A stretch of DNA of 64,000 nt. Source: Altererythrobacter xiamenensis. GTDB lineage: Bacteria > Pseudomonadota > Alphaproteobacteria > Sphingomonadales > Sphingomonadaceae. Location of the stretch: assembly GCF_900177715.1 (NCBI RefSeq), contig NZ_FXWG01000002.1, positions 992,001-1,056,000 on the forward strand, given 5' to 3'. This document shows, piece after piece, positions 4,568-10,629 of the stretch. Within the stretch, counting starts at the first letter, position 1; each line of letters begins with the position of its first letter. Position numbers and translations under genes: made by a program. The notes below the pieces were generated by a model. That model saw nothing but the letters and a program-made list of their open reading frames with translations. It did no database searches and was not told where the DNA came from.

Positions 4568-4878
4568 CAGTTCACGCCCTTTTCGTCGCGCAGGCGGTCG
4601 ATCTCGTTGGTCAGGTGATATCCGCTGTCGGTGACGATGCGTTCGACATTGGCCAGCCGGTCCTTCATCGAGCCAAGCTCGGCACGAAGTTCCGCGTTTT
4701 CCTGGGTGAGCAACTTCACGCGCTCCACGGCCTGGTCGTTCTTGGGATAGACCGGTTTGCCCCAGCTATTCTCCAGCGGATAACCGTTCTTCATCTTCAT
4801 CCAGTTCGATGCAAGATAACCAAGCGTCATGATGATGACCGATGCGATGATCGCAGTTTCTGTAATCGGAAAATCCAT
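4567..4878 (-). CDS. small psp-locus membrane protein with PspB-like tail (103 aa)
   Basis: One membrane helix (8-26), an unusual loop with GYPLENSWGKPVYPK (32-46), then a coiled coil ending RLANVERIVTD (74-84) and EIDRLRD (92-98). The stop of the upstream gene and this ATG share one base (TAATG), so translation is coupled. The Pro/Trp/Tyr-rich loop is not found in its paralogues and may be a specific interaction surface. Confidence 0.7.
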   Translation of the reverse strand: MDFPITETAIIASVIIMTLGYLASNWMKMKNGYPLENSWGKPVYPKNDQAVERVKLLTQENAELRAELGSMKDRLANVERIVTDSGYHLTNEIDRLRDEKGVN

Positions 4879-5186
4879 TATGCGCGTTCCTTGCGTTCCA
4901 TATTGAGCGGGACACCGCTGCCGCTTTCTTCGACCTTGCGAGTGTCGCGCAGCGCCTCGATCTGGGTGGCGATGTCATAGCCGCGGTCGGTCACGATGCG
5001 TTCGAGCACCTGGACGCGGTCTTCGAGCGTCTGGATTTTGCTGGCATATTGCGCAGCCTTTTCAGCAGTGTGTTCGACAGTTGCGTCGATCTGCATCTTG
5101 GCAAGCTTGCGCTGATGGCTGGTCCAGATCGCGACGATCGGGATCGAGACACCGATTATCGGAATGAGATAAGCCCAGTCCCACAT
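4878..5186 (-). CDS. small psp-locus membrane protein with PspB-like tail (102 aa)
   Basis: First of the five extra genes after pspC. It has one membrane helix (5-22), an amphipathic helix, the tail motif RVQVLERIVTD (57-67) and QIEALRD (75-81), and a short polar C-terminus. The VLERIVTD block corresponds to the ALESILDAEHP block I recall in E. coli PspB. It starts 25 bases after pspC and is coupled to the next gene. Likely a PspB-type partner of PspA or PspC; this is inference from motif and context. Confidence 0.7.
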   Translation of the reverse strand: MWDWAYLIPIIGVSIPIVAIWTSHQRKLAKMQIDATVEHTAEKAAQYASKIQTLEDRVQVLERIVTDRGYDIATQIEALRDTRKVEESGSGVPLNMERKERA

Positions 5187-5211
5187 ATTCTATTCTCCCT
5201 ACCTTCTCGGC

Positions 5212-5589
5212 TCAGCGCAGGCGCTCGATCTCGGCGGTCAGGCGCGGATTGCTCGAGACGTAGTGCGTCTCGACGTCGGCCAGACGGCGATCGACATCGC
5301 GGAAGCGGGCGCGAATTTCGCGGGCGGTGCGCTTCGGGCTCTGCCGGACGCGCTGCCAGTACTTCTGCTCGTCTGCATCGACATACAGATGCGATGGCTT
5401 CTTGTTGAGAAGCAGGCCGGCGATGAAATAGGCAGGGATGACCATGCCGCTCGTCATCGGGATGAGGAACAGCGCGCCGAGACGGACCCAGAGCGAGTTG
5501 ACCCCGGTGTAGTCAGCGATGCCCGAGCAGACGCCCATCAGCTTCGCATTGAACTTGTCGCGGTAAAGCGTGGTGCGGGGGCTATTCAC
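5212..5589 (-). CDS. pspC: phage shock protein C
   Basis: A 125-aa PspC-domain membrane protein that senses envelope stress with PspB and sequesters PspA. FNAKLMGVCSGIADYTGV (13-30) and NSLWVRLGALFLIP are the PspC signature; membrane helices lie at about 34-46 and 48-62. The cytoplasmic tail ends RRLADVETHYVSSN (101-114) and EIERLR (120-125), the same two-part tail seen in the small genes downstream. Starts with GTG overlapping the pspB stop. Confidence 0.92.
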   Translation of the reverse strand: MNSPRTTLYRDKFNAKLMGVCSGIADYTGVNSLWVRLGALFLIPMTSGMVIPAYFIAGLLLNKKPSHLYVDADEQKYWQRVRQSPKRTAREIRARFRDVDRRLADVETHYVSSNPRLTAEIERLR

Positions 5590-5882
5590 TTCACGGTTCC
5601 TTTCTTCTCGGCAATCAGGTTTTCGAGCTCGCGCAGCTGCTGATTGTCGGCTTCGCGGTTGTCCAGCAATCGCTTCGGCTGGAACTCGGGGTTCTCGGTG
5701 GCGACCAGGCGCTCGACCGTGTCCATCCGTTCGTCGAGGCGGCGGGCGAGCTGGTAGAGCTCGTCGAGCAGCACTTCGTCATCGGTGGTGATGGTCGCGG
5801 CAGTCTTCCACTTGGTAATGTAGTGAAGAATGAGCCACGGAAGGCCGATCACTACGATTGCAACGATGATACCTTCTTCCAC
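5586..5882 (-). CDS. pspB: phage shock protein B
   Basis: A 98-aa protein with an N-terminal membrane helix (5-20) and a cytoplasmic coiled coil. RMDTVERLVATENPEF (52-67) corresponds to the conserved end of PspB proteins, which in E. coli are near 74 aa, so this one has an extra charged C-terminal extension of about 30 residues. It works with PspC in releasing PspF from PspA under membrane stress. It starts 3 bases after pspA and overlaps pspC. Confidence 0.85.
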   Translation of the reverse strand: MEEGIIVAIVVIGLPWLILHYITKWKTAATITTDDEVLLDELYQLARRLDERMDTVERLVATENPEFQPKRLLDNREADNQQLRELENLIAEKKGTVK

Positions 5883-5885
5883 GGC

Positions 5886-6590
5886 TTAGTCCTCCTGGGG
5901 GTTCTTGCTTGAGGCGCTGCTCTTGCCGAGCGCCTTCTTCATCTGTTCGAGCTCGTCGTCGATCGCATCGGCGCCTTCGAGAGCGGCAATTTCGTCCGCC
6001 AGCGACGCCTTGCCATCCGACTTGTCGGCGATGCTCAGCGCTTCGGCGCGGCCTTCTGCGTAATCGACCCGGCGTTCGAGCTGGTCGAAACGGGCGAGCG
6101 CTTCGTCGGTACGCTCGGTGCTCATCAGCGTGCGCAGCTTGACGCGGTTTTCCGCGCTTTCGAGACGCGCTGCGATGGCGGTCTGGCGGCTGCGGGCTTC
6201 GCGCAGGCGATGCTGCAGCTTCTGGATGTCTTCCTCGTAGGCGCGCAGCGCATCGTCGAGCACGGCGATTTCCTGCTTGAGCTGGTCGCCCATGTCGGCG
6301 GCCTTCTTCTTCTCGACCAGGGCCGCCCGGGCGAGATCCTCGCGGTCCTTGGAAAGGGCCAGCTGTGCCTTTTCGCTCCAGTCAGCCTCGAGCTTGTCGA
6401 GCTTGACGACGTGGCGGTGCATTTCCTTCTGGTCGGCAATCGTGCGCGCCGCGCTTGCCCGAACCTCGACAAGAGTTTCCTCCATCTCGAGGATGATCAT
6501 GCGGATCATCTTCGCCGGGTCATCGGCCTTGTCGAGCATGTCGTTGAAGTTGGCGGCAATGATATCGCGGGTACGGCTGAAAATGCCCAT
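5886..6590 (-). CDS. pspA: phage shock protein A (PspA/Vipp1 family)
   Basis: The peripheral membrane ESCRT-III-like protein that both protects the inner membrane and, in gammaproteobacteria, inhibits PspF. The 234-aa core starts MGIFSRTRDIIAANFNDML and is long helical coiled coil throughout, as in PspA. The start at 6590 is chosen from the family's MGIFSR N-terminus and a GGAG 9 bases ahead. The frame stays open upstream to an ATG at 6839, so a 317-aa form with an 83-aa extension is possible (separate entry). First conserved psp gene after the sigma-54 promoter; C-terminus is acidic then Ser-rich (GKSSASSKNPQED). Confidence 0.93.
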   Translation of the reverse strand: MGIFSRTRDIIAANFNDMLDKADDPAKMIRMIILEMEETLVEVRASAARTIADQKEMHRHVVKLDKLEADWSEKAQLALSKDREDLARAALVEKKKAADMGDQLKQEIAVLDDALRAYEEDIQKLQHRLREARSRQTAIAARLESAENRVKLRTLMSTERTDEALARFDQLERRVDYAEGRAEALSIADKSDGKASLADEIAALEGADAIDDELEQMKKALGKSSASSKNPQED

Positions 6591-6839
6591 GAAGGCTACT
6601 CCATTGAAGAAATTATTGTCCTCGTCGCGATCACTAGCACGGCTGCGGGCCTGGCTCTGGGTCGGCGTCGGGGTGCGCCGCAGGCGTTCGATCTCGGCAT
6701 CGAGACGCGAAACGCGCTGCGGGTTGTAGGGTTGGGCCGAAGCATCGGCGCGACGACTGGAATGCGCGCCTTCGGGGGTGCTCTCGGGGGGGACTGAGCG
6801 CTCCGGCCCTAACTGGGATTTGTCGGTCGGCTTGGTCAT
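6591..6839 (-). other. in-frame coding leader of pspA (possible N-terminal extension or fused small ORF)
   Basis: Eighty-three codons without a stop join directly to pspA. The ATG at 6839 overlaps the TGA of the 50-aa gene as ATGA, the usual sign of coupled translation, so this start is probably used. The encoded segment is polar and disordered (many P, S, T, R), with RVSRLDAEIERLR near residues 42-54, which looks like the EIERLR end of the PspC and small-protein tails. Either a long PspA isoform is made, or a once separate small gene has lost its stop. Confidence 0.5.
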
Positions 6840-6988
6840 GCGATCTCAACGGTCTGATGCTGGGGCGCGGCGGCGAGCGCCGGGCTTGCATGCATCTGCG
6901 TGGACAGCGCTACAAACGCGACCATCGCCGCGATGCTGGCCATTGCTGCCTGTCCCAGCTTGGTCTGGAAGAAGCTGCGGTTGTACAT
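6836..6988 (-). CDS. small membrane protein, first gene of the psp operon (50 aa)
   Basis: The ATG at 6988 follows a very strong AAGGAGG nine bases upstream, about 25 bases into the transcript expected from the sigma-54 promoter. The protein has a basic N-terminus, one hydrophobic segment (KLGQAAMASIAAMVAFVALS, residues 10-29) and an Ala-rich tail that could be a signal-peptide cleavage site (SPALAAA). It could be a membrane peptide or a tiny exported protein. Its stop overlaps the next ATG. An upstream ATG at 7018 is in frame but has no ribosome site. Confidence 0.6.
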   Translation of the reverse strand: MYNRSFFQTKLGQAAMASIAAMVAFVALSTQMHASPALAAAPQHQTVEIA

Positions 6989-7024
6989 GATCCAAATCCT
7001 CCTTGCGGTGTTGTTCATATATCA

Positions 7025-7039
7025 GCAAGGGGTGTGCCA
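7025..7039 (-). promoter_or_regulatory. sigma-54 (RpoN) promoter of the psp operon
   Basis: On the minus strand the sequence reads TGGCAC-N5-TTGCT, an exact match to the -24/-12 consensus. Transcription should begin near 7013, about 25 bases before the start of the first small gene. Together with the divergent pspF and the palindrome at 7092-7112 this is the standard enhancer-dependent psp promoter. Confidence 0.88.
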
Positions 7040-7091
7040 AACTGTAAAATCACAGCAATATCAGTATCTTGACGAAGTTCGTGAATTTGGC

Positions 7092-7112
7092 GTTTGGCGC
7101 CTATTGCCAAAC
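7092..7112. promoter_or_regulatory. probable PspF upstream activating sequence (palindrome)
   Basis: A perfect 7-bp inverted repeat GTTTGGC-N7-GCCAAAC lies about 53 bases upstream of the sigma-54 promoter and 29 bases before the pspF ATG. Its location between the two divergent genes suits both enhancer binding for the psp operon and repression of pspF by its own product, as is known in E. coli. Confidence 0.7.
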
Positions 7113-7140
7113 ATTGGGATTTTTCACTATAGGTTGGCGC

Positions 7141-8172
<1,032 letters not shown>

Positions 8173-8672: not shown

Positions 8673-9554
8673 TTGAGAAATATTTCAAAGAAGTCGTTGG
8701 CGCTGGTTTCTGCAGCAACAGTGGGCGCTGGCTTGCTGGCGATGCCGGCCATGGCAAACCATTCCTGGAGCAATTACCACTGGGAACGTACCAGCAATGA
8801 AATCACCGTGTCGGTAGTCGATTTTACTACCGGCGAATGGGCGCAGAGCAACCGCGCGAGAACTGCGGTCACTGACTGGAACGCTTCCGATTACATCCAG
8901 TCGCCCTATTCGCGCGGGTCGGGCATCAACACCGCCTGTCCGATCGTCGCTGGCGAGATTCATGTCTGCAATGACGACTACGGCGATGTTGGCTGGCTTG
9001 GCATCGCGAGCATCAGCGCGACCCGCGGCCGCGAAACCCACATCATCGGCGGCGTGACCAAGCTCAACGACTTCTACTACGCGATGCCGCAGTACAACAC
9101 TGACGTATGGCGCCAGCTGGTGATGTGTCAGGAGATCGGCCACGATTACGGCCTCGGTCACCAGAACGAGGATTTCAGCACCAATACAACCGATTCCTGC
9201 ATGGAATACACTTCCACTCCGACCGCGATCGACAAGACGCCGGACCAGCATGACTTCGACCAGCTCGCCAATATTTATGCGCACAGCCATGGCGGCAGCG
9301 ATGGTGGTGACACCGGCGGCAACCCCGGTAAGGGCGGTGGTAAAGGCAAGAAGCTGGGCAATTCTGGCAACACGCCGGCAGCCTGGGGCCAGGCAATCGC
9401 CTTCGACCAGCAGGGCCGCCCCAATGTCTTCAAGCGGAGCATGTCGAGCTACGATATCATCACGCATGTGACCTGGACGCCCGACGCCGACATGGGCGAT
9501 CATCACCATGAGGAAACAGGCCCGCGTCAGCACAGCGGCGATCGCCGTTTCTAA
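8673..9554 (+). CDS. secreted metzincin-like metalloprotease homologue with QExxH motif
   Basis: A 293-aa protein with a signal peptide (to AMA, residue 28). CQEIGHDYGLGHQ (152-164) matches the metzincin HExxHxxGxxH zinc motif except that the first His is Gln (Q153); E154, H157, G160 and H163 are kept. Two Cys pairs flank this core. A Gly/Lys-rich linker (about 208-230) leads to a C-terminal domain with GNTPAAWGQ and THVTWTPD, also found in the next gene. TTG at 8673 is chosen because GGAG lies 8 bases upstream and it directly precedes a normal signal peptide. Whether it is a protease or a non-catalytic relative is open. Confidence 0.65.
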   Translation: MRNISKKSLALVSAATVGAGLLAMPAMANHSWSNYHWERTSNEITVSVVDFTTGEWAQSNRARTAVTDWNASDYIQSPYSRGSGINTACPIVAGEIHVCNDDYGDVGWLGIASISATRGRETHIIGGVTKLNDFYYAMPQYNTDVWRQLVMCQEIGHDYGLGHQNEDFSTNTTDSCMEYTSTPTAIDKTPDQHDFDQLANIYAHSHGGSDGGDTGGNPGKGGGKGKKLGNSGNTPAAWGQAIAFDQQGRPNVFKRSMSSYDIITHVTWTPDADMGDHHHEETGPRQHSGDRRF

Positions 9555-9582
9555 TCGATCGGACAAACCGTCGTAAGAATGA

Positions 9583-9614
9583 AAAGGGTCCGGTTCACGC
9601 CGGGCCCTTTTTCT
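9583..9614 (+). terminator. rho-independent terminator
   Basis: AAAGGGTCCGG, a TTCA loop and CCGGGCCCTTT followed by TTTTTC, 29 bases after the metalloprotease-like gene. The stem has a small mismatch on one side. Confidence 0.8.
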
Positions 9615-9741
9615 TTGGCGCATCAAAAGAGATCAGGATAAATTTCCGTTAGGCTTCTTCGTCAGTGCTGTTTCTTGTCACCGAATTAGCCCGCTTCTTT
9701 CAGAAATCGAGCAGACCAACCGAAGCATGGGGGACGGATCT

Positions 9742-10629
9742 GTGAAGCGGACCAATTTACAAATGTACGGCATGACAGCCTCGATCCTCGTGATCGGCCT
9801 TGCGGCGTCGCCACTGCTCGCGCACCATCAATGGGGCACCTATGCCTGGGCAAACGGCCCGGTCACCGCGCCGGTGGTCGACAATACGGACAGCCGCTGG
9901 ACTGCCTATGTCGATCAGGCGGTGGCCGACTGGAACGCATCTCCGCATATCTCGGCGGCGATCGAAAGCGGCAATAATTCTTCCTGCAGCATGGTCACGG
10001 GCACGATCCAGGTCTGCAATGGCGACTATGGTGCGAATGGCTGGCTGGGCCTCGCCAGCATCGCGATTTCGAGTGGCAAGATCATCGCGGGCACGACGAA
10101 GCTCAACGACAACTATTTCGAGCGCGCCGCCTACAACACCTACAGCTGGCGCCAGCTCGTCACCTGTCAGGAAATCGGCCATGATTATGGGCTCGGCCAC
10201 CAGAACGAGAACTTTTCGACCGACGAAACGCTGTCCTGCATGGAATACACCAGCTGGCCGCAGGACAACGAGCATCCCGACGCGCATGACTACGAAGAGC
10301 TCGGCTGGATGTATGGTGGCGGCACCGGCGGAGATGGCGGTGACACCGGCGATGGCGGCACAGGCGGTGGCGGCAAGGGTGGAGGCAAAGGCGGCGGCGG
10401 AGGCGGCGGCAAGCCTGACGGCACCGGTGGCGGAAAGGGCAAGAACAAGGCCCGCGTCGCGCTTCCTGCTGTCGGCAACACGCCGGACACATGGGGCCGC
10501 CCGGTCGATTATCTGCCCAATGGCAAGCCCTTCAAGTTCGAGAAATCAGTCGCGGGCGTGAAATTCGTCACCCACGTCACTTGGACGCCCGACGATTATG
10601 AAGGCGGGCACGACGAGCACGCGCACTGA
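9742..10629 (+). CDS. second secreted QExxH metzincin-like protein (paralogue)
   Basis: A 295-aa paralogue of the gene at 8673. Signal peptide MKRTNLQMYGMTASILVIGL followed by a cut near SPLLA; the motif CQEIGHDYGLGHQ (142-154) is identical, again with Gln instead of the first zinc His. A long Gly/Lys linker (about residues 191-228) and the C-terminal GNTPDTWGR...THVTWTPDD module follow, ending in a His-rich tail. GTG 9742 with GGGGGA seven bases upstream gives the better signal peptide; ATG 9727 is the alternative. It has its own strong terminator. Confidence 0.65.
   Translation: MKRTNLQMYGMTASILVIGLAASPLLAHHQWGTYAWANGPVTAPVVDNTDSRWTAYVDQAVADWNASPHISAAIESGNNSSCSMVTGTIQVCNGDYGANGWLGLASIAISSGKIIAGTTKLNDNYFERAAYNTYSWRQLVTCQEIGHDYGLGHQNENFSTDETLSCMEYTSWPQDNEHPDAHDYEELGWMYGGGTGGDGGDTGDGGTGGGGKGGGKGGGGGGGKPDGTGGGKGKNKARVALPAVGNTPDTWGRPVDYLPNGKPFKFEKSVAGVKFVTHVTWTPDDYEGGHDEHAH

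Follow-up and report, generated by a model that had tools for sequence, protein, structure and literature searches.

A family of secreted bacterial metzincin-like proteins in which glutamine is the rule at the first histidine position of HExxHxxGxxH

A motif with three histidines is treated as the definition of a metzincin. In the matrixin MMP-8, Asp233 hydrogen-bonds to the Met-turn, and the bacterial metzincin snapalysin has the ligand set HExxHxxGxxD. VMP3 of Volvox carteri, reportedly first described by Heitzer and Hallmann in 2002, is presumably a gametolysin-type M11 enzyme. According to the available text of a study of MMP8 H197Q, VMP3 naturally carries QExxHxxGxxH and prefers copper (PMC7717551). 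In MMP-1, the ammonium group of Phe81, the mature N-terminus, is salt-bridged to Asp232 in structure 2CLT, and a longer or shorter N-terminus reduces collagenolysis to 30–40% (available text of PMC1885970). A snake-venom metzincin homologue, BlatPII, has Gln in place of the third His and is reported to be catalytically inactive (extracts of PMC5086652), whereas the archaemetzincins are given the extended motif HExxHxxGxxHCx4CxMx17CxxC (extracts of PMC3427221). Within the open-licence literature, we found no active metzincin other than VMP3 described with an exception at the first His, and no description of a bacterial family with QExxHxxGxxH.

The window studied here, meaning the whole stretch of 64,000 nucleotides of Altererythrobacter xiamenensis DNA that was analyzed, encodes two proteins of this kind. 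P0001 (8673..9554; 293 amino acids, TTG start) and its paralogue P0002 (9727..10629; 300 amino acids, ATG start) were defined from their open reading frames and alignments to the family; all features of the two genes lie on the + strand. They are 46–47% identical in alignment and are arranged head to tail between a pspF-like gene (7069–8172) and rimP-nusA-infB (from 10741), these neighbors being named from their sequences. The original prediction described two secreted metzincin-like proteins that share one change, Gln for the first His, in an otherwise complete motif. Both reading frames and the motif are indeed present, each protein begins with a signal peptide that has a plausible cleavage site, and every other residue of HExxHxxGxxH is kept in each protein. 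The three-ligand signature of the metzincin clan, HExxHxxGxxH/D, is thus broken at its first position, and the Met-turn of the clan is present, as SCMEY in both proteins and with its Met in 153 of 155 rows of the family alignment.

Each protein consists of a signal peptide, then a domain of roughly 175 residues that contains CQEIGHDYGLGHQ and, past a Gly-rich linker, a small module at the C-terminus. The P0001 start at 8673 agrees with the starts of aligned relatives. Its signal peptide (8673..8756, 28 codons), called by rule as was that of P0002, is predicted to be cleaved between AMA and NHSW, in keeping with the AxA rule, which makes His30 (8760..8762) residue 2 of the predicted mature protein; His34 of P0002 (9826..9828) would likewise be residue 2 after cleavage between LLA and HHQW. 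In P0001, CQEIGHDYGLGHQ occupies 9126..9164, with the Gln153 codon at 9129–9131 and that of Glu154 at 9132–9134, followed by His157 and His163; in P0002 it occupies 10165..10203, with the Gln codon at 10168–10170. The Met-turn follows at 9195..9209 in P0001, where Cys176 precedes Met177 and probably forms a disulfide with Cys152, and at 10234..10248 in P0002. At the start of helix C lies His193-Asp194 (9249..9254), which corresponds by offset to residues 232–233 of MMP-1 and MMP-8 and has its equivalent in His187-Asp188 of P0002 (10285..10290). The C-terminal beta module of P0001 (9351..9476), placed from the strands of a structural model, comes after the linker (GNTPxxWG...THVTW) and also appears in the alignment of an Actinomycetota member, L014.

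Terminator-like hairpins stand 3' of P0001 (9592..9606) and of P0002 (10666..10691), so the genes are probably two separate transcription units; the scan of the region gave five such hairpins against 2.2 in shuffled sequence. Across the 3.08-Mb host genome, a degenerate DNA pattern for CQEIGHD has exactly two matches, and neither this pattern nor a profile search found a third copy there. Upstream of P0001 lies a psp-like operon (4878–8172) that includes the pspF-like activator, and the gene with the Gln motif also adjoins a pspF-like gene at loci L006 and L007. An all-against-all comparison of neighbors across 80 loci revealed no recognizable conserved partner gene. A copper-type P1B ATPase with a CPC motif lies within 4 kb at three of the 80 loci (L038, L044 and L076), too few to use; the P-type ATPase near L069 is without CPC.

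The Gln is a property of a whole family. In a 157-row alignment, position 153 is Gln in 145 of the 155 rows with a letter there and His in the remaining 10. Several other positions, none of them an inclusion filter, are also conserved: Cys152 (154/155), Cys176 (155/155), Met177 (153/155) and Asp194 (154/154). Glu154, His157, Gly160 and His163 are found in all 155 rows, but the pattern E..H..[GD]..H was demanded for inclusion. The table excludes P0001 with its duplicate fragment L012, the fragment L177, the distant L146 and L200, five sequences lacking the motif pattern (L239, L245, L205, L097 and L098) and the stop-split genes L006 and L107; L063 and L079, counted as gaps, both carry Gln in an earlier alignment. 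Gln is encoded by CAG 129 times and by CAA 17 times, and His by CAC 11 times and CAT once; because both Gln codons are used, Gln153 is held at the protein level, although His is a single base away. As the pattern behind the 80 scanned loci itself contained QE, we made a separate count from searches with profiles that do not force QE. This gave 93 distinct loci with Gln and 12 with His, the raw tally being 92 Gln, 12 His and six rows that the pattern could not read, namely L210 (Gln, YQEIGH, with Tyr for Cys152), four halves of stop-split genes and one fragment. The original claim that the change had been selected rather than left by decay agrees with these counts and with the use of both codons, and Gln at the first ligand position looks like a working variant kept in the family. 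The rival view, in which two recent paralogues lost the His by decay or chance and are drifting, is accordingly very improbable and is already refuted by conservation of the residue across phyla with both codons in use, even though decayed copies do occur in the family.

Such copies form a set of observations of their own. In L239 (QELGN, with Asp for the third His) and L245 (QEFGN), the second His of the motif is changed, and the metal site is either decayed or rebuilt. In two genomes of the same genus as the window (L006/L108 and L107), which are 99.4% identical over 3.6 kb, an in-frame TAG falls exactly at the catalytic Glu codon of the single copy, which is likely a broken gene. L249 and L251 have lost the Met of the Met-turn.

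The family spans Pseudomonadota, Actinomycetota, Acidobacteriota, Chloroflexota and many candidate phyla. A scan of genome_contigs (84,980 species), with a nine-row alignment and a pattern containing QE, gave 255 pattern matches, of which 243 were relatives and 80 were kept: by NCBI rank, 27 from Pseudomonadota, 15 from Actinomycetota, six from Acidobacteriota, five from Chloroflexota and the rest from candidate phyla or unplaced. Profile searches found matches in 27 of 296 genomes at the level of the order (three of them weak and without the motif) and in 5 of 385 at the level of the class (two of them weak, with other HE motifs). Further afield, 12 of 296 genomes matched in the class of a Streptomyces (three strongly), 26 of 237 in a class of tiny-genome candidate phyla (24 with E <1e-70), 13 of 129 in the phylum of an Acidobacteriota genome and 11 of 131 in that of a Chloroflexota genome (six with E <1e-20 in each). 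Closer to the window, one genus of its taxonomic family had matches in 21 of 71 genomes, and a His-type profile matched 16 of 199 genomes of that taxonomic family. The protein family is rare in the window's own genus: one search matched 7 of 100 genomes, of which five, counting the window's own, belong to the genus, and it covered 60 other genomes of that genus. Among named records, the top protein matches come from Erythrobacter, Parerythrobacter and other Sphingomonadales, and members are annotated as hypothetical protein (for example, WP_212728614.1). The suspicion that the variant belongs to a wider, unstudied group is thus borne out by relatives across many phyla that lie outside existing family models.

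Among mobile elements, one plasmid record matched the family, and a phage collection gave no match. The IMG/VR contigs L095, L096, L097 and L098 encode family members. L095, a Gln protein on a viral-type contig, seems to be a lipoprotein, with a lipobox for its signal peptide and with His30 and His193 kept; L097 and L098 have QEIGHALGMPD and are without His193. L013, taken as a member in the first viral scan, proved to be a false short match. Separately, L147, L149, L151, L200 and L201 are distant His-type metzincins of Actinomycetota and Chloroflexota with CHExGH...CM, for which no Pfam family scored above its cut-off. By eye, these genes adjoin a secreted protein of one general type, and a similar stretch is apparently fused C-terminally in L008 and L009.

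Structural models place the family on the metzincin fold. AlphaFold2 models were built for mature P0001 (77-sequence alignment; mean pLDDT 86.6, pTM 0.85) and for L047, a distant candidate-phylum member (68-sequence alignment; pLDDT 92.3, pTM 0.91). Both, although from different phyla, match karilysin, MMPs and snapalysin with Z scores of 10.6–11.8 and rmsd of 2.5–3.5 among the best 50 rows for each, and both have the sheet, active-site helix and helix C of the clan. Karilysin is the best match, with Z of 11.8 and 11.7 over 142 and 143 aligned residues at rmsd of 3.4 and 2.9 for P0001 and L047, respectively. The best Foldseek E-values are about 1e-4. Since the models superpose on matrixins, the motif sits at a metzincin active site, in agreement with the original prediction.

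Likeness to the known groups stops short of membership in them. With the matrixins (karilysin, MMP-1 and MMP-8), P0001 shares the fold, motif helix, Met-turn, helix C Asp and place of the mature N-terminus, but identity is 15–20%, Gln replaces the first His, His stands at the Asp232 position, and Peptidase_M10 (PF00413) was absent from the matches of both P0001 and P0002 at E up to 10. VMP3 is likewise extracellular and, by its described motif, has the same Gln for the first His, yet Peptidase_M11 (PF05548) gives neither protein a match at E up to 10. A search with PF05548 over 137 genomes including that of the window also gave no match and carries little weight, as its controls were silent too. 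Snapalysin of Streptomyces caespitosus, also small and bacterial, scores Z of 11.2 and 11.5 against the two models, with alignments that begin only at model residue 13–15. Pfam gives P0001 sub-threshold matches only: the reprolysin-like Reprolysin_4 (PF13583) reaches 17 bits against a cut-off of 22, a cut-off exceeded by the His-type relative L118 (24.2 bits), and the archaemetzincin model PF07998 (M54) reaches 12.4 bits against 24.4, the Cys after the third His of that group being absent from both proteins. No NCBIfam model scored above its cut-off for P0001 or P0002, and a sequence search of solved structures returned nothing meaningful. The family therefore stands outside the Pfam and NCBIfam models.

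A second pair of histidines accompanies the Gln. His30, Gln153 and His193 occur together in 138 of the 152 rows with letters at all three positions, and in 133 of these 138, residues −3 and −1 are compatible with cleavage ahead of residue 29. Six rows, all in a His clade of one Sphingomonadales genus, have His30 and His153 without His193; five of their N-termini read GTGHQW and one GVGHQW, so that His30 is probably off position 2. This clade, with its longer-looking N-terminus, has mostly Val or Ala at position 193. Four rows have His153 with neither His30 nor His193, three (L234, L237 and L238) have Gln153 with neither but keep the rest of the site, and one (L058) has Gln153 and His193 without His30. 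By corrected mutual information, position 193 is the best partner of both 30 and 153 (pair ranks 98 and 20 of 14,055), but the effective number of sequences is 63 and two clades confound the ranks. Position 28 outscores 153 as a partner of 193, with 164 and 197 nearly as high as 153. A paired test on the tree, with three to four pairs, was not significant; the co-occurrence rests on counts, not on a test.

The structural comparison suggests what His193 might do. In VIA-align, the first residue of each model is aligned with Phe81 of MMP-1 2CLT; the alignments end with residue 175 on 242 for the first model and 182 on 243 for the second. If helix C is gapless, His193 (165 and 171 in the models) falls on MMP-1 residue 232 in both, so that by offset the positions agree with those of the matrixin docking feature, although His stands there in place of Asp. 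Given this offset onto Asp232, the simplest reading would be that the mature N-terminus docks on His193 and brings His30 next to it, and His193 is more likely a docking residue than a replacement ligand. The pair may go with Gln because a softer metal site needs stiffening, or because the pair itself binds metal.

His has apparently returned twice inside the Gln family. In a tree of 57 rows, from which positions 28–30, 153, 164 and 193 were removed, two clades with His are both nested among Gln rows. The first is the Sphingomonadales genus clade (L117–L121 and L223; SH-aLRT 96); in the second (SH-aLRT 100), the His rows L115, L249 and L251 form the majority alongside the Gln row L234. The tree needs four changes of Gln/His label, of which starred branches force three, with the long-branched, distant L146 and L200 included. 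Because His seems to replace Gln twice with the other ligands kept, the two residues may be interchangeable at this ligand position. The second clade, in which Gln and His alternate (L115, L234, L249 and L251), has a PEP-CTERM-like tail, with the Pfam PEP-CTERM match in L115. Its function may have changed, as members and their kin lose other active-site residues (L249, L251, L239 and L245).

From the sequences, the family-wide conservation, the fold and the co-occurrence of His30, Gln153 and His193, all directly observed, we infer metal binding by Gln153, catalysis and N-terminal docking. The explanation that we favor, and hold to be somewhat probable, is that P0001 and P0002 are secreted matrixin-fold metallopeptidases with a site of two His and one Gln and with the N-terminus docked at His193. 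The metal would be held by His157, His163 and Gln153, probably through the side-chain oxygen of the Gln, and Glu154 would serve as general base above the usual Met-turn. No propeptide is visible, and signal peptidase alone would make the mature N-terminus, which, with its His at position 2, would dock on His193 of helix C, where Asp232 grips the mature N-terminus in active MMPs. Such a softer site might have a lower affinity for zinc and accept or even favor copper, as reported for VMP3; copper as the metal is speculative. A 2-His plus Gln site with ordinary Glu-assisted hydrolysis seems most likely because of the VMP3 precedent and quantum calculations on MMP8 H197Q, in which, in the available text, the site accommodates Gln with its backbone unchanged and Cu(II) acquires an additional ligand bond (PMC7717551). 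Against it, Gln is a rare and weak metal ligand, the site has decayed in some members (L239, L245, L249, L251 and the genes with a stop at the Glu codon), and the available text on those calculations draws no conclusion for zinc stability (PMC7717551).

The strongest competitor, which we nevertheless think unlikely, is a pseudo-peptidase: a metzincin fold, perhaps with a metal, that binds a peptide, surface or partner without cutting. In its favor, the first ligand is altered throughout the family, ligand changes go with inactivity in related metzincins (extracts of PMC5086652), and a survey, in the text available, reports conserved, non-random substitutions at HExxH sites (PMC3650047). BlatPII and some ADAMs resemble P0001 and P0002 in having a motif ligand replaced, but in BlatPII the change is at the third His and such cases are single proteins, whereas here it is at the first His and is the rule in a cross-phylum family. 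Against it, the family retains the catalytic Glu, which a protein that only binds could do without; among the profile-search rows it is absent only from stop-split genes and a fragment; His comes back at the same position in two lineages; and VMP3, with the same motif, is active (extracts of PMC7717551).

A further reading, to which we give only a slim chance, would make the family a copper class of metzincins, with Cu(II) on two His and Gln and with the Xaa-His N-terminus and His193 forming a second, Gly-His-Lys-like copper site by which the active conformation is locked. If so, the protein would mature, fold and take up copper in a single step outside the membrane, and loss of the His pair would free a lineage to regain an ordinary three-His zinc site.

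We consider it about as improbable that the place of the first His at the catalytic metal is taken by His193 or by the N-terminal His30. A swap of Gln153 for His193 fitted the rows first sampled, in which every Gln row had His193 and every His row lacked it, but wider sampling turned up Gln rows without His193. That another His might be the ligand draws support from the conserved His193, which goes with Gln153, is its top covariation partner and occurs in none of the 10 His-type rows in the table. However, His193 maps by offset to Asp232 of MMP-1 and MMP-8, which binds the N-terminus and not zinc, and three Gln rows (L234, L237 and L238) keep the rest of the site without either histidine, so the swap is disfavored on the present alignments. 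Moreover, the independent events are few, with a sign test that was not significant, and the distant His-type L200 also has His at position 193.

Under the favored reading of a 2-His plus Gln metallopeptidase site, what is new is that a ligand change already known, though rare, is the norm throughout one metzincin family. Retention in 24 of 237 genomes of a tiny-genome candidate-phyla class suggests that the secreted protein has a use there. In this large bacterial family, where Gln prevails and His branches occur naturally among the Gln members, the role of the first ligand, and the metal that results, can be tested within one family.
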